A DNA stretch of 64,000 bases, taken from the NCBI GenBank assembly GCA_025774935.1, contig JALGZK010000011.1, forward strand, positions 3,412-67,411, given 5' to 3'. Below, one piece after another: positions 7,921-17,662 of this stretch (within the stretch, counting starts at the first letter, position 1; each line of letters begins with the position of its first letter). Source of the stretch: a bacterium. Lineage in GTDB: Bacteria > Joyebacterota > Joyebacteria > Joyebacterales > Joyebacteraceae. Under the pieces are notes generated by a model, which saw only the letters and a program-made list of their open reading frames with translations, did no database searches and was not told where the DNA came from. Made by a program: the position numbers and the translations under genes.

Positions 7921-8039
7921 CGGGTGCGGAACGTCCCCTCGACGCCGTTCGAGGCCGGGGTGGAGTGAGGCGGCGGGCGTCGGCGGGCTGACTGAGAGAG
8001 ATGAGACGAGCGAGAAGAGCGGAGAAGGAGGCTCTTGGA

Positions 8040-11000
8040 ATGAGACGGGCACTTGTCCTTTGCGCGCTGCTGACGCTGATCGCTGGGCCGCAGGTGGTCT
8101 CTGCGGACGTCCCTGAGCTGATCAGCTACCAGGGAGTGCTTCTGGATGGCACGGGCGTCCCTGTGGAGGATGGTAGCTATCTCCTTACGTTCCAGATCTA
8201 CGACGTCGACACGGGCGGGACGCCGCTCTGGGGAGAAGGCCAGCTGGTCACGGTGACCGACGGCGTGTTCGAGGCAGTCCTGGGAAGCATCACGCCAATC
8301 TTCCTCCAGTTCAACGTTCCCTACTGGCTCGGTGTGTCGATCGGTGGCGACGCCGAGCTCACCCCGCGAACCGAACTGACGACATCGCCGTACGCGTTCC
8401 GCGCGAAGTACGCGGATTTCGCGGCGGACCTCGACTGGGAGACCGCCGGCGACGACATCTACCGCACCCTGGGCAACGTGGGGATCGGCACGGACACTCC
8501 GGTCTACATCCTCGACGTCGCCGACACGATGCGCGCCACCGGCTTCGTGATGCCGACGGGCGCCACCGATGGCTACGTCCTGACCTCCGACGCGACGGGC
8601 GTCGCGAGCTGGCAGCCCGGAGGGGGTGCCGGTACCGGCGACATCACCGGCGTGGAGGCGGGCGCTGGCATGACCGGCGGCGGGGACACGGGCGACGTGA
8701 TCCTCGACGTCGGGGCTGGTGACGGCATCGCGGTCGCAGCGGATGACGTGTCTGTGGCCGTCGCTGACATCGCTGGAGACGGGCTCTCCGACGATGGTCT
8801 GAATGACCTCCAGGTGAACACAGGCGCGGGCCTCACGATCGACACCGACGCCGTTGCCCTCGGGCCGACCTACCTCGACGGCAGCGCGTACGACGCCGTC
8901 TTCGTGAACGAGGGACAGGCCGACGCCATTACGGCCGACATGCTCCTTCCGGATGTCGTGTCGAGCATCTCCGGCGTGTCGAACGACGCGGGCGACGTGG
9001 CCCTCGTGGCGGGAACGAACGTCGTGATCACCCCAGACGACGTCGGAAACACGATCACGATCGATGCGACGGGCGGCGGGGATGGCGACATCACCGCGGT
9101 GAACGCCAACGACGGTCTCGTGGGCGGTGGCGACACCGGCGACGTGGACCTCGCGGTCGCCGATGGGGCGGGCTTCGTGGTCCTCCCCGACAGCATGTAC
9201 GTCAACACCGGCGTCGGGCTCGAGGTGGACGCGGACGCGGTCGAGCTGACCGACGCGTACGCCACGGGACTCTCCTACGACTCCAGGTTCGTCAACGAGA
9301 ACGAGCCGGACGCGATCTCGCTCGCCATGATCCAGCCGGACGTGGTCTCGAGCGTAGACGGAGTCGCGAACGATGGCGGTGACGTCGACTTCGTCGCGGG
9401 CGCAGGCGTCACGATCACGCCGGACGACGACCTGAACACAATCACTTTCGAGGCGGCCGGAGGCGGCGACATCACCGCCGTGATAGCCGGTGCGGGCCTC
9501 GCGGGCGGCGGGACCGAGGGAGACGTGACGCTTGACGTCTCGGGAGTCACGGCGGACCTCATCACTCCCGACATCGTCTCGAGCGTGGACGGGGTCGTGA
9601 ACGACGGTGGCGACATCGACCTCATCGCGGGCACGAACATCACGATCACGCCAGACGACGTCGGGAACACGATCACGATCGACGCCGCCGCGGGAGATGA
9701 TGGGGACTGGACGATCTCCGGCTCCGACCTGATTCCAGCGGTTGCCGGGAACGTCGGCATCGGCGACGCGACTCCGGCCTACAAGCTCACGGTCGAGGCC
9801 GAGAACAGCAAGACCGCGAACTTCCTCTTGACCGAGACGAACGACACCGGCGAGGGACGCGCGGCCGTGCACGCGCAGCGCAACCGCACGCTTCTGAACA
9901 GCGGCGCCACGTTCGCCTACGACCAGACGAACAACGCGATCGTCGGCTACAACGCATACGGCGACCCGCGGACCTTCGGCGTGGCCGGTTACACTGAGTT
10001 CACGTTGAACCGGACAGGCGGCGTGTTCGGCTCGAACTCCGACGCCTCCTGCTGGGGCGCGCTCGGGTTCTTCGATTTCTTCGGCGAGAGCTACGGCATG
10101 TATACGCCGAACATGGTGTGGATCGGCGGCAACGTCGGCATCGGCACCGAAGGCGCTCCCCAGAATAAGCTCGACGTCAACGGGACGCTGAGGGCCAACG
10201 TTCTCAGGCTCACCAACGGCGTGACGTCGGGGTACTTTCTCCAGACGGACTCGGATGGCGTCGGGAGCTGGCAGCCGATCCCGCCTGACGACGACTGGAC
10301 CGTCTCCGGCTCGGACATGTACTCGACGGTCGCCGGAAACGTCGGTATTGGCACAACGACCCCGGCCACGAAGCTCGAGGTCACGGGTACGGTGACCGCG
10401 ACGGCTTTCGTGGGCGACGGCAGTGGTCTCACCAACCTGCCCGCAGGCGTCGAGACCGATCCTGTATTCGGTGCGTCCGAGGCGGCGCTCCTCGTGGCCG
10501 GCGACAAGGCGAACTACGACGCTGCCTTCGGTTGGGGCGACCACGGCCTCGCGGGCTACCTCACGAGCTACACGGAGACCGATCCGGTCTACGGCGCGTC
10601 CGAGGCAGCGCTGCTCGTCGCGGGCGACAAGGCGAACTACGACGCTGCCTTCGGTTGGGGCGACCACGGCCTCGTGGGCTACCTCACGAGCTACACGGAG
10701 ACCGATCCGGTCTACGGCGCGTCCGAGGCGGCGCTGCTCGTGGCCGGCGACAAGGCGAACCTGGACACCGCGTTCGGATGGGGTGACCACAGCACCGCAG
10801 GCTATCTCACGAGCCAGTACTGGACGCAGACCGGTTCTGATGTCTACTACAACACGGGCGACGTCGGCATCGGGACGTCCACTCCGGGAGCCGCGTTGGA
10901 TGTCGTTTCAACAGGCACGGGTCTCGCAGTGAGTGTCACAGCGAACTCCTTCGTGACCGCCGCCATCATGGGCGTGAGCACGACGCAGGACATCGGCATC

Positions 11001-11549
11001 GGCGAGACCGTGCTCGAGCTCGCCGCGGGCACGAGTGCGAACGACGACTCTTACTTCATCGAGGCGCTCCGCGGAACCGACCCGGTCTTCCGCGTCTGGG
11101 GCGACGGTGACGTGACTGCAGACGGCGCTTTCACCGGCGGGGGAGCGGATTTCGCCGAGATGTTCGCGGTGAGCACCGGTGCAGGTTCCTCGGAGCCGGG
11201 CGACGTCATGGTTATCGACCCGTCTGCCACGAGGAAGATCGTGAAGTCGAGCAAGGCGCGGTCGACGCTCGTGAGCGGAATCTACAGCACGAAGCCTGGG
11301 TTCATCGGGTCTGAGGACTGGAGCCGGAACGCGAGCGACGAGATTCCGCTCGCAGTGGTCGGCATCGTGCCGTGCAAGGTCTCGTGCGAGAATGGCGCGA
11401 TCACTCCGGGTGACCTCCTCGTGACTTCGAGCATTCCCGGTCACGCCATGCGGGATGAGACCCCGCGTCCCGGGACAATCCTTGGTAAGGCCCTCGAGGG
11501 GCTCGATTCGGGCACTGGTGTGGTGAAGGTGCTCGTGACCCTCCAGTAA
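8040..11549 (+). CDS. Large tail-fibre-like repetitive secreted protein (cassette copy 1)
   Basis: A 1,169-aa protein. ATG 8040 is chosen for GGAGG 8 nt upstream and a signal peptide (RRALVLCALL ... VVSADV). Residues ~22-125 are a YQGVL-type N-terminal domain with an SPYAFRAKYAD ending. Then come repeated beta modules of about 85-110 residues (GDITAV-AG-GL-GGG-GDV, ... NEGQADAIT, PDVVSSI-GV-NDAGDV), and NVGIGT-TP-KLEV modules typical of fibre/needle proteins. Three 41-residue repeats follow. The C-terminal ~140 residues (GGGADFAEMFAVSTG ... GDLLVTSS) resemble the end-domain of phage-tail/Peptidase_G2-like proteins; that match is tentative. It is probably a surface filament. A 977-codon reverse frame over it is a shadow. 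Confidence 0.8.
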   Translation: MRRALVLCALLTLIAGPQVVSADVPELISYQGVLLDGTGVPVEDGSYLLTFQIYDVDTGGTPLWGEGQLVTVTDGVFEAVLGSITPIFLQFNVPYWLGVSIGGDAELTPRTELTTSPYAFRAKYADFAADLDWETAGDDIYRTLGNVGIGTDTPVYILDVADTMRATGFVMPTGATDGYVLTSDATGVASWQPGGGAGTGDITGVEAGAGMTGGGDTGDVILDVGAGDGIAVAADDVSVAVADIAGDGLSDDGLNDLQVNTGAGLTIDTDAVALGPTYLDGSAYDAVFVNEGQADAITADMLLPDVVSSISGVSNDAGDVALVAGTNVVITPDDVGNTITIDATGGGDGDITAVNANDGLVGGGDTGDVDLAVADGAGFVVLPDSMYVNTGVGLEVDADAVELTDAYATGLSYDSRFVNENEPDAISLAMIQPDVVSSVDGVANDGGDVDFVAGAGVTITPDDDLNTITFEAAGGGDITAVIAGAGLAGGGTEGDVTLDVSGVTADLITPDIVSSVDGVVNDGGDIDLIAGTNITITPDDVGNTITIDAAAGDDGDWTISGSDLIPAVAGNVGIGDATPAYKLTVEAENSKTANFLLTETNDTGEGRAAVHAQRNRTLLNSGATFAYDQTNNAIVGYNAYGDPRTFGVAGYTEFTLNRTGGVFGSNSDASCWGALGFFDFFGESYGMYTPNMVWIGGNVGIGTEGAPQNKLDVNGTLRANVLRLTNGVTSGYFLQTDSDGVGSWQPIPPDDDWTVSGSDMYSTVAGNVGIGTTTPATKLEVTGTVTATAFVGDGSGLTNLPAGVETDPVFGASEAALLVAGDKANYDAAFGWGDHGLAGYLTSYTETDPVYGASEAALLVAGDKANYDAAFGWGDHGLVGYLTSYTETDPVYGASEAALLVAGDKANLDTAFGWGDHSTAGYLTSQYWTQTGSDVYYNTGDVGIGTSTPGAALDVVSTGTGLAVSVTANSFVTAAIMGVSTTQDIGIGETVLELAAGTSANDDSYFIEALRGTDPVFRVWGDGDVTADGAFTGGGADFAEMFAVSTGAGSSEPGDVMVIDPSATRKIVKSSKARSTLVSGIYSTKPGFIGSEDWSRNASDEIPLAVVGIVPCKVSCENGAITPGDLLVTSSIPGHAMRDETPRPGTILGKALEGLDSGTGVVKVLVTLQ
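10452..10820 (+). repeat. Three tandem 123-bp coding repeats
   Basis: Unit starts are at 10452, 10575 and 10698, exactly 123 bp apart. Each encodes 41 residues of the form ETDPV-GASEAALLVAGDKAN ... FGWGDH ... GYLTS. Copies 1 and 2 are nearly identical in DNA; copy 3 has diverged in its second half. The W-G-D-H ... G-Y pattern is common in phage-fibre stalks. Confidence 0.95.
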
Positions 11550-11907: not shown

Positions 11908-12432
11908 ATGAGGCGCATGACAACGCTCCTTGTTGTCGCGATGATCTTCCTGCTCCTGCCTCTTGCTTCGAGCGGACAGATCACCCTGCCGTACGATGTC
12001 GTGGGGTGCGGGGGTGGGGAGATGAGCGGCGTCGGCAACGTGGTCCGGGGGACGCTCGGCCAGGGCTGCATCGGCGTCGCCAGCGGCCCGGGGAACATTC
12101 ACGAGATCGGCTTCTGGTACCTCTTCGGGGAGCCGGGCACGGGAATCGACGAGGGTGACCTCACCCCAACGAGGTACTGGCTCGGTCAGAACCACCCGAA
12201 CCCGTTCAACCCGATGACGACGCTCAAGTTCTCATTGCCCCAGCTCACTCGCGTGATCATGAAGCTCTACGACGCTTCGGGGCGCGAGGTTCGCACACTC
12301 GTAGACGAGGAGCTCCCGGCCGGTCACCACAGTACTGTCGTAGAGGCGCAGGGACTCGCGTCCGGCATCTACTTCTGCCGCATGGTGGCGGGTAGCTTCG
12401 TGGAAACTCGGAAGCTCGTACTACTCAAATAG
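11908..12432 (+). CDS. Small secreted protein with type IX sorting domain (cassette copy 2)
   Basis: A 174-aa protein starting at ATG 11908 with GGAGG upstream. It is a paralogue of the protein at 7396-7920, aligning end to end: signal peptide, then VVGCGGGEMSG, GTLGQGCIGV, HEIGFWYLFG, then the sorting domain (LGQNHPNPFNPMTTLKFSLP, YDASGREVRTLV, SGIYFCRM, RKLVLLK). Copy 2 gains Cys residues in the short mature region (VVGCGGG, QGCIGV) that copy 1 lacks. It is followed by the second fibre gene, with a large hairpin in between. Confidence 0.85.
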   Translation: MRRMTTLLVVAMIFLLLPLASSGQITLPYDVVGCGGGEMSGVGNVVRGTLGQGCIGVASGPGNIHEIGFWYLFGEPGTGIDEGDLTPTRYWLGQNHPNPFNPMTTLKFSLPQLTRVIMKLYDASGREVRTLVDEELPAGHHSTVVEAQGLASGIYFCRMVAGSFVETRKLVLLK

Positions 12433-12495
12433 GAGCGGGCCGGTCCTCAGCGCGGCCCACAGGACCGCGCTTGGGGGCGAGCCCAGGCCCGCTCC
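12432..12495 (+). other. Two-tier hairpin between the small gene and fibre gene 2
   Basis: The outer arms GGAGCGGGCC (12432-12441) and GGCCCGCTCC (12486-12495) are perfect complements. Inside, GGTCCT (12442-12447) pairs with AGGACC (12461-12466). No T run follows, so this is more likely an mRNA-stability or partial-termination element than a full terminator. Confidence 0.55.
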
Positions 12496-12557
12496 GACCG
12501 ACCTTGGACTCAGGGTGTACTGGTCGGATGCGCGGCTGGACTGAAGGAGGTGCGCAA

Positions 12558-15500
12558 ATGAAACGGGCTCTTGTTCTCTGCGTGCTGCTGGCGATGGCGA
12601 CGGCGCCCCAGGTCGTCGCGGCAGCCGTGCCGCAGACGATGAGCTACCAGGGGGTGCTCCAGGACGGATCCGGGAACAACGTGCCGGACGGGAGCTACTC
12701 GCTGAACTTCCGGATCTACAACGTTGCCGTGGGCGGGAGTTCTCTGTGGTTCGAGGCGCAGACAGTGTCCGTCGTAGATGGGATCTTCGACGTGATCCTC
12801 GGAAGTACGACACCTCTGACCTTGGCGTTCGATGCCCCTTACTGGCTGGGCATTCAGGTAGGAGCCGACCCCGAGCTGACCCCTCGCATGGAGATGACGT
12901 CAGCGGCCTACTCACTGAACGCGCAGCACGCCGAGACGGTTGAAATCAGCGGACTCGGAGGCGACGGCCTCGTCGAGGATGGAACCGAACTCGATGTCAA
13001 TCCGGGCACGGGACTCGAGGTGGCCGGCGATGAGGTTGGCCTGACGACCCCATACGCGAATGGCAGCGCCTACGATGGTGTGTTCGTCAACGAGGGCCAG
13101 GCAGGCTCCGTGACGTCGGGAATGATCGCGCCGGACGTTGTATCGAGTGTCGACGGTGTGTCGAACGACGCCGGCGACGTCGATCTCGTCGAGGGCGCGA
13201 ACATTACCATCACACCCAACGACAGCGCGAACACGATCACGATCGCGGCCGCAGGCGGAGGCGACATCTCGGGCGTCACCGCGGGGAATGGTCTCGTCGG
13301 GGGCGGTACGTCAGGTGACGTGACGCTCGATGTCAGTACGGCGACCGGTCTCCAGGTGGTGGGCGACGCGGTTCAGCTGACGACGCCCTACGCGAGCGGC
13401 AGCGCGTACAATGGGGTGTTCGTCAATGAAGGTCAGACGAACGGGGTGACGGCCGGGATGATCGCGCCGGACGTGGTCGGGAGCGTAGACGGAGTGTCGA
13501 ACGACGCGGGGAACATCGATCTCCTGCCCGGCTCGAATATCACGATCACGCCGAATGACACCGCGAACACGATCACAATCGCTGCAACGGGCGTCGGCGA
13601 CATCACGGCGGTCGACGCCGGAGCGGGTCTCGGCGGAGGCGGTTCCGTCGGTGCCGTCACGGTCAACGTCAATACTGGAACGGGCATTCAGGTGAGCAGC
13701 GATGCCGTGGCGCTGACGACGCCCTACGCGAGCGGCAGCGCCTATGACGGCGTGTTCGTCAACGAAGGACAGGCAAACTCCGTGACGACGGGCATGGTCA
13801 CGCCCGCCATCGTCTCGAGCGTCGACGGCGTCGTCAACGACGGTGGGAACGTCGACTTCGTCGCCGGATCGAACATGACGATCACGCCGAACGATGGGGC
13901 CAATACCATCACGTTCGCTACGAACGGGAGCATTGGCGGCAGCGGGACACCCAGCTACCTTCCGAAGTTCACTGCCCCGTCGACCCTCGGGAACTCGATC
14001 ATGTACGAGAGCGGAGGGACGATCTACATCAGCGCCGCTTCGCGAGACGCGAAGGCGAGGGATCTGGAGACCGACGAGCGGAAGGACGGCGGAGCGTTCT
14101 CGAGGAGTCGCCTCCCTCGGCAGCTGGACATCCACGGCAATGACACCTGGACGATCTACGCCGAGGTGAGCGACGTCGACGGTCTTGACGGAGAGGCTGC
14201 GGTCTTCGGCTACCGCACGGACTCCAACGCCGGAACGGGCTACGCTATCAACACGACGAACAACGGCGTAGTCGGCTACTCGCTCTGGGGAGATCCCTAC
14301 ACGTTCGGAGTGGCTGGCTACACGTGGGGTGACTTCTCGAACTGCGGCGGCGTCCTCGGCTCCGACGACACGGGGAGCTACTGGGGTTCGCTCGGATACA
14401 GGGATTCTGGCGGATCGTGGTGGGGTGCCTACACCCCGGACAACGCGTACGTCGGAGGAACGCTTCGGCTCCCGGCGGGGGCCTCGTCCGGTCTCGTCCT
14501 GACCTCGGACGCCAGCGGGAACGCGAGCTGGCAGTCCACCCCCTCAGGTGACATCACGGCCGTCACCGCGGGCAACGGCCTCAGTGGCGGTGGAGGATCG
14601 GGAGCGGTGACGCTCCACGTAGGTGCCGGTGATGGCATCGACGTCTCTTCGTCGTCGGTTGCCGTCGACGTCACGGATTTCGCCGGCACCGGTCTTGGTG
14701 AAAGCTCCAACAACCTGCAGGTGAACACGGGAAGCGGGCTCGGCCTCAGCGGCGACGCGGTGTACGTTCCTTCGGGGGCGATCAACGCCGGACATCTCGC
14801 CACGAATTCCGTTACGCCCGCAGAGATTGCGACCGACGCCGTCGGCGCCCCTGAGATCGCCGCGAACGCGGTCGGCCAGAGCGAGATAGCCACGGGTGGT
14901 GTCGCGTCGGCGGAGGTCGCCGACAACACGCTCACCGCGAGCGACCTCGCGCCTGGTTCCGTCGGCTTCAGTGAACTTCAGGATCCGCTCACGCTCTCCA
15001 GCGCCTGGAACATCAACTCGACCGGCAGCAACGCGCTGGAGGTGGAGTATACGGGCGCCAGCGGTGACAGGATCGCGGTGCGCGGGGAGTCCACCCCGAC
15101 GGACTACTACGGCATCGGCGGGGAGTTCGAGGGTGGGTACTACGGATCACGGCACTACTGCTACGGCGCCAGCTCAAGCTACTACACGGCGCTCTATGCC
15201 TCAGCATCCGCCGCTTCCGGGACCAAGTACGGCGTCTACGCACGTGCGGTGGGGACGGGCGGCACGAAGTACGGCGTCTACGGTTACGCTGAATCCGGCG
15301 GCACCGCCTACGCCGGGTACTTCAACGGCACGCTCCACGCGACGACCGCCACCGCGAACGTCAAGGCGTTCAAGATCGACCACCCCCTCGATCCCGCGAA
15401 CAAGTACCTGTACCACAGCAGCGTCGAGAGCGCGGACATGATGAACATCTACAACGGGAACGTCGAGCTCGACGGAGGCGGGAAGGCGTGGGTTCAGATG

Positions 15501-15821
15501 CCCGACTGGTTCGATGCGCTGAACGCCGACTTCCGCTACCAGCTTACCGCGATCGGGGCGCCGGGGCCGAACCTGTACATCTCCGAGAAGATGTCCGGCG
15601 GCCGGTTCCAGATCGCGGGTGGCGAGCCCGGTATGGAGGTCTCGTGGCAGGTGACGGGAATCCGCCACGACCCCGTGGCCGAGGCGCACCGGATTGAGGT
15701 CGAGCAGGACAAGTCCGCGGAAGAGGTCGGCAAGTACCTGACGCCTGAAGTCTACGGCTTCTCGGCAACGCAGGCGGTGGACTACATCCCGCCGAAGCCG
15801 GGCGAGTCGCAGAGGCACTAA
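12558..15821 (+). CDS. Large tail-fibre-like repetitive secreted protein (cassette copy 2)
   Basis: A 1,087-aa protein. ATG 12558 has AAGGAGG 8 nt upstream and starts a signal peptide (KRALVLCVLL ... VVAAAV). The N-terminal YQGVL domain closely parallels copy 1 (QTMSYQGVLQDGSG ... PYWLGIQVGADPELTPR). Repeats of GDISGVTAGNGLVGGG and VNEGQ...P-VVSSVDGV-NDAG follow. The second half differs from copy 1: a NAGHLATNSVTPAEIATDAVGAPEI helical-repeat stretch, Gly/Tyr-rich KYGVYARA modules, and a distinct C-terminal domain (~130 aa, HPLDPANKYLYHSSVES ... GGEPGMEVSWQVTGIRHDP) seen in other environmental fibre-like proteins. It is probably a surface filament with a different tip. Confidence 0.8.
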   Translation: MKRALVLCVLLAMATAPQVVAAAVPQTMSYQGVLQDGSGNNVPDGSYSLNFRIYNVAVGGSSLWFEAQTVSVVDGIFDVILGSTTPLTLAFDAPYWLGIQVGADPELTPRMEMTSAAYSLNAQHAETVEISGLGGDGLVEDGTELDVNPGTGLEVAGDEVGLTTPYANGSAYDGVFVNEGQAGSVTSGMIAPDVVSSVDGVSNDAGDVDLVEGANITITPNDSANTITIAAAGGGDISGVTAGNGLVGGGTSGDVTLDVSTATGLQVVGDAVQLTTPYASGSAYNGVFVNEGQTNGVTAGMIAPDVVGSVDGVSNDAGNIDLLPGSNITITPNDTANTITIAATGVGDITAVDAGAGLGGGGSVGAVTVNVNTGTGIQVSSDAVALTTPYASGSAYDGVFVNEGQANSVTTGMVTPAIVSSVDGVVNDGGNVDFVAGSNMTITPNDGANTITFATNGSIGGSGTPSYLPKFTAPSTLGNSIMYESGGTIYISAASRDAKARDLETDERKDGGAFSRSRLPRQLDIHGNDTWTIYAEVSDVDGLDGEAAVFGYRTDSNAGTGYAINTTNNGVVGYSLWGDPYTFGVAGYTWGDFSNCGGVLGSDDTGSYWGSLGYRDSGGSWWGAYTPDNAYVGGTLRLPAGASSGLVLTSDASGNASWQSTPSGDITAVTAGNGLSGGGGSGAVTLHVGAGDGIDVSSSSVAVDVTDFAGTGLGESSNNLQVNTGSGLGLSGDAVYVPSGAINAGHLATNSVTPAEIATDAVGAPEIAANAVGQSEIATGGVASAEVADNTLTASDLAPGSVGFSELQDPLTLSSAWNINSTGSNALEVEYTGASGDRIAVRGESTPTDYYGIGGEFEGGYYGSRHYCYGASSSYYTALYASASAASGTKYGVYARAVGTGGTKYGVYGYAESGGTAYAGYFNGTLHATTATANVKAFKIDHPLDPANKYLYHSSVESADMMNIYNGNVELDGGGKAWVQMPDWFDALNADFRYQLTAIGAPGPNLYISEKMSGGRFQIAGGEPGMEVSWQVTGIRHDPVAEAHRIEVEQDKSAEEVGKYLTPEVYGFSATQAVDYIPPKPGESQRH

Positions 15822-15900
15822 GAAGCGGCAAGCGCGGGCGGTGTCGGGCAGGCGAGCGCATGACAGGTGCGGTGACCTGACGCCGTGCGTGAAACAAAAG

Positions 15901-15932
15901 GAGGCCGGTCGACGTTCGCGTCGACCGGCCTC
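15901..15932. terminator. Bidirectional hairpin between convergent genes
   Basis: A perfect 14-bp stem (15901-15914 with 15919-15932) closed by a TTCG tetraloop. An A-rich stretch lies on the left (T-rich on the minus strand) and CTTCT follows on the right. It separates fibre gene 2 from the minus-strand selenoprotein gene. Confidence 0.8.
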
Positions 15933-15960
15933 TGTCCTTCTGTCGGTTGGCGACAGGCGT

Positions 15961-17601
15961 CTACGCCTCCCCACCCCTCCACGCGATCAACGTCTCGATC
16001 TCCTTCGCCAACTTCTCCTCGTCGCCTTGGGAGAACCCGAGGTGGCGGTAGATGACGCGCCCCTCGTGGTCGACGACCACGGTGACCGGAATGCCGGTCA
16101 CCTTGTAGGCGTCGAAGACCTCACGGTCCTCGTCACTCAGCACGATGTGGCGGACGTTGTTCTCGTTGAGGAAGTCGCCCGCTGCGGGCGGCAGCGTTCC
16201 GGAGTTGATGGAGACGACCTTGAACCCATCAGCTTCGTACTTCTCGTAGAGCTCCACCAGGTGCGGCAACTCCGCACGGCACGGTCCTCAGGTGAAGCCC
16301 CAGAAGGCCAACAGCACGACGTCGCCCTTGAGGTCCGCGAGCGCGACCGTCTCTCCGTCGCGGCTCGGGAGCGAGAACCCGGGCGCCATGGTGACGCCGT
16401 CGTACCGTCTCTCGGCGATGAGCTCGTCGAGCGCGTCGGCGCTGCCGTCCCTCGCGGTGAGCATCTCAGCGAGGATCGCTCGGGCGGGATCGTCAGCGTC
16501 GACCGATCTGGCGACGAGCACCGTGAGGAAGTCGATCGCGCGATCGTCCATTCCGCCGGCACGGTAGACCTCGATCAGGTGGTCGACCGTGAAGTTCCCG
16601 GACGCCGGCGTCTCCGGCGAGAGGGCCAGGGCCTTCTCGAGGTGCGCGGCAGCCCTCTCGGTGTTCCCGGCCTTGAACTGCGCCCAGCCGGCGGTGTCGA
16701 GTGCCATCGTGGAGTCGAACGCCGAGGGGGCGAGCTCGACCGACCGCTCCGCCATTCGGGCGGCCGTCTCGGGCTCGACACCTCTCTGGGTCATGTCGTA
16801 TGCGATGTTGTTCAGGACGTCCCATCCCGTGAACCCCTTCGACGCCGCGAGCGCTTCGACAGCAGCGAGAGCGACGTCGGGATCCTCTTCGATCGCGAGA
16901 CGATACACGCTGGCCTGGAGCACGCCCTTGACGATCGGGTCGTCGGCCTCCGCGATGTGGGACTCAGCCGCGGCAATCGCGGCATCGAGCCCGTCGCGCT
17001 CGGCGACCTCGCCGAGAAGCGCGCCGTACGCCCTGTCCAGCATCGACGGCCACATCTGAGCGTCCTCGGTTCCCGCCTCGGATCGGGCGAGCCCGACGCG
17101 GGCGACCTCGACAGTGAGCTCCTTGTCGGTGAGCTCGCTGCCCGAGTGGTACCACGTCAACCAGATGTGCGGTGTCTGGACCGCGGTGTCGTCGGCGATG
17201 AGGTCACGCGCGAGCTCTTCGGCGCGTGCCACGTGCGCCGGATCGTCGGTCGCGACGAGGGCGCGGTCGTACCTGGACAGCACGAAGCCGTGGCGCTCCG
17301 GTGTCGCCGGAACCTCGTAGAGCTTCTCCCACGCCTCGAAGGCGGCGTCCTGCCCGCCGGCTTCCTCGGCGGCAGAGACGGCCGTGTCGATCGCCCGTCC
17401 CAGGATATCGCCGGCCTCCTCGGGTGCCTCTGCGTTCGCGGTCACGAAGGCGAGGGCTTCCTCGGATCGTGCGGCGGCGTCCTCGATGGCCATGATCCTG
17501 TCCAGCTCGTGCTCCAGGGCCGCGAGGCGCTGCTCGGAGCAGCCCCAGAACGCGCCCAGCACGAGGGCTACCACAAAGGCGAGCGCAATTGCCCGTCTCA
17601 T
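15961..17601 (-). CDS. TPR/TlpA-like thioredoxin lipoprotein, predicted selenoprotein (UGPC active site)
   Basis: One continuous 546-residue frame broken only by TGA at 16290-16288. The start at 17601 has GGGAGG 6 nt upstream and a signal sequence followed by Cys21 (probable lipoprotein). Residues ~30-390 are helical and TPR-like (GWAQFKAGNTERAAAHLEKA). Residues ~395-546 are a TlpA/ResA-type thioredoxin fold: APGFSLPSRDGETV, VVLLAFWGFT, then TGA (residue 438), then GPCRAELPHL, and cis-Pro505 in TGIPVTVVVD. The TGA sits exactly where the first active-site Cys of W-C-G-P-C belongs, giving U-G-P-C. Both sides are intact and in frame. A SECIS-like hairpin follows. The role would be periplasmic disulfide reduction, for example of apocytochrome c. 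Alternatives are a nonsense mutation or a TGC/TGA sequencing error. Confidence 0.75.
16261..16277 (-). promoter_or_regulatory. Candidate bacterial SECIS hairpin
   Basis: On the mRNA, 10 nt after the TGA, arm GTGCGG (16277-16272) pairs perfectly with CCGCAC (16266-16261) around the loop AGTTG. Known bacterial SECIS elements have a short stem whose apical loop lies about 16-37 nt after the UGA and has a G among its first two loop bases. Here the loop begins 17 nt after the UGA with A-G-U. The hairpin also codes for CRAELPH, so coding constraint cannot be excluded. Confidence 0.55.
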
Positions 17602-17662
17602 CAGAACCTCCCTCAGTAGGGGACCTTGCCTGATTCGGAAGTCATCCTACACGAGTTTGAAA

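Follow-up and report, generated by a model that had tools for sequence, protein, structure and literature searches.

A putative membrane-anchored TPR-ResA selenoprotein family with Sec/Cys interchange in an uncultured phylum-level lineage

Gene layout and domain structure

The window analysed here is a stretch of DNA of 64,000 nucleotides. Its minus strand contains an open reading frame (17601..16288) coding for 437 amino acids, which is terminated by a TGA (16290-16288). If this TGA is read as selenocysteine (Sec, U438), the same frame stays open for 108 further residues up to a TAG (15963-15961), resulting in a gene of 546 residues including U438 (15961..17601, minus strand). The motif around the TGA is ...LLAFWGFT-U-GPCRAELPHL..., which places the TGA (16288..16290, minus strand) at the first Cys of the ResA/TlpA CxxC motif, the position of the attacking Cys in UxxC. 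The codon for the resolving Cys441 (TGC, 16279..16281) and the codon for the active-site cis-Pro505 (16087..16089) are located downstream on the same strand; Cys441 is nearly invariant and P505 invariant in the family alignment. Sequence and open reading frames agree with the first-pass annotation, which had reported a single in-frame TGA at the first Cys of the thioredoxin motif in a 546-residue frame and had expected normal gene callers to split the gene. The ORF listing indeed shows two ORFs, the second of which begins at a TTG within the thioredoxin domain, and the first start codon 3′ of the TGA falls beyond the CxxC motif.

Direct reading of the sequence revealed an intrinsic-terminator-like hairpin 3′ of the TAG (15895..15930, minus strand), which has a 12-bp stem followed by a CTCCTTTTGTTT-like T-rich run; none is present after the TGA. 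With a strong terminator past the TAG, the transcript appears to span the whole 546-residue frame. When the TGAs on both strands of the window were scanned by composition, that at 16290-16288 came first among 11 candidates, clearly ahead of the second (1.01 versus 0.69), and no known redox site is recognisable around the other ten. An ORF of 592 amino acids on the plus strand (15841-17619) was interpreted as the antisense shadow of this high-GC gene; both the Pfam signal and the conservation are on the minus strand.

The protein starts with a predicted membrane helix or signal anchor (residues about 2-37, 17491..17601), seen as a hydrophobic N-terminus in all intact homologues. It is followed by an alpha-solenoid/TPR-like domain (residues 42-397, 16411..17478) and a ResA/TlpA-type thioredoxin domain (residues 405-543, 15973..16389), all encoded on the minus strand. 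The Pfam matches to Redoxin (2.1e-24) and AhpC-TSA (1.6e-23) (PF08534/PF00578) span the TGA. An AlphaFold2 model based on a 17-member alignment (mean pLDDT 90.2, pTM 0.81) begins with an N-terminal helix, continues with helical hairpins that form an alpha-solenoid, and ends in a ResA-like thioredoxin domain. In the solenoid the pLDDT is mostly above 85, and the Pfam matches to TPR models are weak (TPR_6, and TPR_2 with 24.7 bits, just under the cut-off of 27). The top Foldseek match is ResA (2f9s; E 4.4e-10, TMt 0.91, rmsd 1.4 Å), and searching the PDB sequences with a profile points the same way. The protein combines a thioredoxin fold, UxxC in the place of CxxC and the cis-Pro, as in ResA/TlpA oxidoreductases. 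The 108 residues after the TGA, which according to the first-pass annotation complete the thioredoxin fold, are not random sequence, as the Pfam matches spanning the TGA show. The gene had also been described as a TlpA-like lipoprotein, and Pfam and Foldseek support the first part of this description. The lipoprotein label is doubtful because FWGC21 (Cys21 codon at 17541-17539) is atypical compared with the lipobox [LVI][ASTVI][GAS]C and because most orthologues lack the Cys, which is found only in the genus of the host (G000, G001, G002) and in G008a.

Sec machinery and Sec/Cys exchange

A search of the host genome (3.24 Mb in 40 contigs, 96% complete) for the Sec machinery, as suggested by the first-pass annotation, found all four components: selA (533 bits), selB (344.6 bits, above the curated cut-off), selD (371 bits) and tRNA-Sec (Rfam 71.5 bits; tRNA-SeC with anticodon tca according to ARAGORN). 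The host selD (L074, G000:C14:177978-178895) has an in-frame TGA of its own in the N-terminal motif ECAG-U-ASKLGPEDL, and shares a contig with tRNA-Sec, immediately upstream of which it lies. The phylum was sampled with 20 genomes, all from one family and several of them fragmented assemblies; tRNA-Sec was detected in 19, selA in 16 and selB above the cut-off in 11 of these. No selB was detected in the Sec-form MAGs G002, G016, G018 and G019 and no selA in G016; tRNA-Sec is present in all four.

Altogether, 18 distinct full-length homologue genes, 32-81% identical to the window protein, were identified in 16 of the 20 genomes; one is cut by a contig end. JALGVN010000136 matches G002 in sequence and coordinates and is apparently that very assembly, so it was not counted as an independent relative. 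At residue 438 the homologues have a TGA in 12 cases and a Cys codon in six (tblastn), and no further in-frame stops were found in the 18 genes. The alignment places the Cys/Sec exchange exactly at this residue, and the random stop codons in related homologues that had been named as a sign against a selenoprotein were not found, which supports the selenoprotein reading. A base-call error is implausible, because the same TGA is present in 12 homologues from separate assemblies. Among the orthologues examined, those with readable flanks, most are adjoined by a divergent endonuclease V gene, which identifies these genes as positional orthologues.

A homologue tree was built without the residue-438 column. 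The best tree requires four Sec/Cys state changes, and its well-supported branches force at least two. Both forms occur in genus g4, the inner fork order of which is weakly supported, and genome G018 contains one Sec copy and one Cys copy. Sequence comparison indicates purifying selection on the part that follows the TGA: dN/dS 3′ of the TGA is 0.15-0.42, which is similar to or mostly below the 5′ value. In the Cys-form homologue of G005 (L024) the motif reads CGAS where CGAC would be expected; with its second Cys lost, this protein could act as a one-Cys enzyme.

A SECIS-like hairpin and the reading of the TGA

A SECIS-like hairpin is located directly 3′ of the UGA (16261..16277, minus strand), with arms at 16277-16272 and 16266-16261 and the loop AGUUG at 16271-16267. 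In the 12 Sec genes it extends from +13 to +29 relative to the U of the UGA and consists of a 6-bp stem and the loop AGUU[G/U]. All stem cells are paired in these genes (72 of 72, 12 genes with 6 pairs each), three of the six stem pairs show compensatory changes with 10 cells altered on both sides, and the covariation score was reached by none of 500 shuffles. In slid controls, in which the partner was moved by 1-3 bases, pairing falls to 24-67%. The six Cys genes are 80.6% paired and their covariation is not clearly above the shuffles; pairs are broken in G018a, G014, G004 and G010, and the loop is altered in G005. The Cys homologue of G011 has kept a perfect hairpin, as expected of a recent change to Cys.

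Some of the sequence conservation of the hairpin is due to the protein, since the conserved RxE[LF]P codons fall within it, and protein constraint is thus a confounder. A constraint at the RNA level can be told apart by the rare loop codons: all 7 loop Leu codons are TTG, which outside the loop makes up 2.2% of the Leu codons of these genes, and all 5 loop Phe codons are TTT (5% elsewhere), these counts coming from related and not independent genes. A Cys paralogue in the host genome has GAG ATC CCG at the site of the hairpin loop. None of the SECIS families in Rfam matches the hairpin, and a minimum-free-energy calculation on a single, longer sequence gave an unremarkable value (z −1.0). Support for a SECIS stem-loop 3′ of the UGA comes from the comparison of the genes, by covariation and codon choice. 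A similar hairpin layout is found after the TGA in another redoxin of the host genome, as well as in 2-Cys-Prx-like genes of relatives and in some UxxC TlpA-type genes of other phyla.

Judging from the sequence, the gene almost certainly codes for one full-length selenoprotein with Sec in a thiol-redox active site. That the TGA at 16290-16288 is decoded as Sec, as proposed in the first-pass annotation, is highly probable given the machinery in the genome, the Sec/Cys exchange at residue 438 and the SECIS-like hairpin 3′ of the codon. If the TGA were a true stop, an assembly error or the mark of a pseudogene, the product would be a 437-amino-acid TPR protein and the thioredoxin half would be dead or a separate gene. 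Gene callers would then report exactly the two ORFs described above, the second from a TTG within the domain. This explanation is very improbable, as the same TGA recurs in homologues down to about 32% identity and is replaced by Cys in the six others, the low dN/dS and the covarying hairpin follow it on its 3′ side, and the first start codon there lies past the CxxC motif. A pseudogene or sequencing error was ruled out by the TGA shared among 12 homologues and the constrained downstream frame. A genome-wide reassignment of TGA, for instance to Trp or Gly, would likewise leave a TGA codon in frame, and is still less probable. It was ruled out because TGA is the ordinary stop of neighbouring genes: in three of them, the terminal TGA is backed up by a second stop within 4-10 codons. 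In addition, TGA is the terminal stop of the homologues in G001, G004 and G010, a single TGA of the window looks strongly coding on both sides in the composition scan, the residue-438 column alternates with Cys only, and the genome contains the Sec machinery.

Related families, proposed function and other genes

The window protein resembles ResA/TlpA/DsbE (CcmG) in the fold of the C-terminal domain (2f9s, TMt 0.91, 1.4 Å, 32% identity), the CxxC position, the cis-Pro and the N-terminal membrane anchor. It differs from them in that Sec replaces the first Cys and that a helical TPR-like domain of about 360 residues separates the anchor from the thioredoxin domain; its score against the NCBIfam model ResA NF002854 is 92.5 bits with a cut-off of 170. 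The NCBIfam family NF041054 ("ResA-like WAxxUGC motif-containing protein") and the UGC TlpA family (PMC13188914) share the ResA-like domain and Sec at the first-Cys position, but have UGC spacing and another N-terminal part, whereas the window protein is of the UxxC type. With its UGPC motif instead of UGC it reaches 56.2 bits against NF041054 (cut-off 300). Prx-like and thiol-disulfide isomerase-like UxxC selenoproteins also have UxxC in an AhpC-TSA/TlpA-type domain; in contrast to them, the window protein is fused to a TPR/alpha-solenoid, and no description of such a fusion was found for them. The TUGxCR motif of NF053656 (redoxin_TUGYCR (seleno)protein) corresponds to TUGPCR in the window protein. 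This model matches one of 17 family members (3e-5) and had no match in the host genome at E 0.001. No curated full-length NCBIfam model was matched above its cut-off by the TPR-fused family, in which Pfam recognises the redoxin domain only.

UxxC selenoproteins with pfam00578, pfam13905 or cd02966 domains have been published (PMC2398784, PMC9312934, PMC13188914), and together with NF041054 they show that Sec in a ResA/TlpA domain is already known. Our literature search found no paper linking selenoprotein, tetratricopeptide and UxxC. Thus the earlier remark that this is not a textbook family stands for the TPR-fused full-length form, for which neither an NCBIfam model nor a paper was found, and does not stand for UxxC redoxin/TlpA selenoproteins as such. 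What appears to be new is the full-length TPR-fused family, its lineage and the repeated Sec/Cys exchange. We consider it likely that the gene represents an undescribed membrane-anchored TPR-ResA selenoprotein family, which in the genomes searched is confined to one uncultured phylum-level lineage. Sec and Cys would have been interchanged repeatedly in this family, even between paralogues of one genome, and its SECIS hairpin would lie inside the RxE[LF]P codons and decay after a change from Sec to Cys, with a similar layout in other selenoproteins of the lineage. It would be a further full-length family of selenoproteins whose genes would be split by automatic annotation, in a lineage whose selenoproteome appears active and varied. 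Closely related Sec/Cys pairs (genus g4, G018) and the graded SECIS decay could serve as a natural series on keeping versus dropping Sec in a thiol reductant.

In bacteria, SelB bound to a hairpin 3′ of the UGA delivers Sec-tRNA(Sec). Here, SelB bound to the hairpin 13-29 nucleotides 3′ of the U of the UGA would bring Sec-tRNA(Sec) to UGA438. The N-terminal helix would anchor the product in the membrane, and the exposed helical TPR-type domain would probably dock a partner. Extracytoplasmic clients would be reduced through an attack of U438 on their disulfides (or oxidised sulfur species), with Cys441 as the resolving residue. We infer Sec insertion in this way from the sequence; the modelled fold and the anchor suggest the location in the cell, the type of client and a reaction in the reducing direction. 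The gene lies outside any informative operon. On balance we favour a membrane-anchored extracytoplasmic thiol-disulfide reductant. A Sec protein acting as peroxidase, isomerase or oxidant is rather unlikely, since the closest structures and profiles are ResA, TlpA and DsbE with CxxC and not Prx, and Cys441 is nearly invariant; it would be in line with the peroxiredoxins included in the Redoxin/AhpC-TSA Pfam families, with the preference of Sec for peroxidase chemistry and with the G005 homologue, which retains the first Cys alone (CGAS).

Several other genes with an in-frame TGA were observed. A second long redoxin (L079, redoxin match at G000:C28 90398-90754; L080, L081) has a TGA at the first active-site Cys (FGASW-U-PICPLQ), which is followed by a strong hairpin, and is conserved in G002 and G008; it is probably another selenoprotein family of the lineage. 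In the 2-Cys-peroxiredoxin-like genes L082-L085 of G006, G007, G009 and G010, a TGA is located at the peroxidatic Cys (FYPGDFTFV-U-PTEL), together with a SECIS-like hairpin with an AGUU loop. Four ResA/TlpA-type genes (L050, L051, L052, L053), which come from three genomes outside the host family (G051, G050, G025), have a TGA at the first Cys, and the hairpin of L050 and L052 is nearly the same as that of the window gene. The TGA of L049 in G057 was rejected as a normal stop between TlpA and the following membrane-protein frame. On its plus strand, the window codes for two large secreted proteins that are rich in repeats and built along related lines (8001-11549 and 12471-15821). Between them, at 11908-12432, lies a small protein that carries a type IX secretion sorting domain (Por_Secre_tail).
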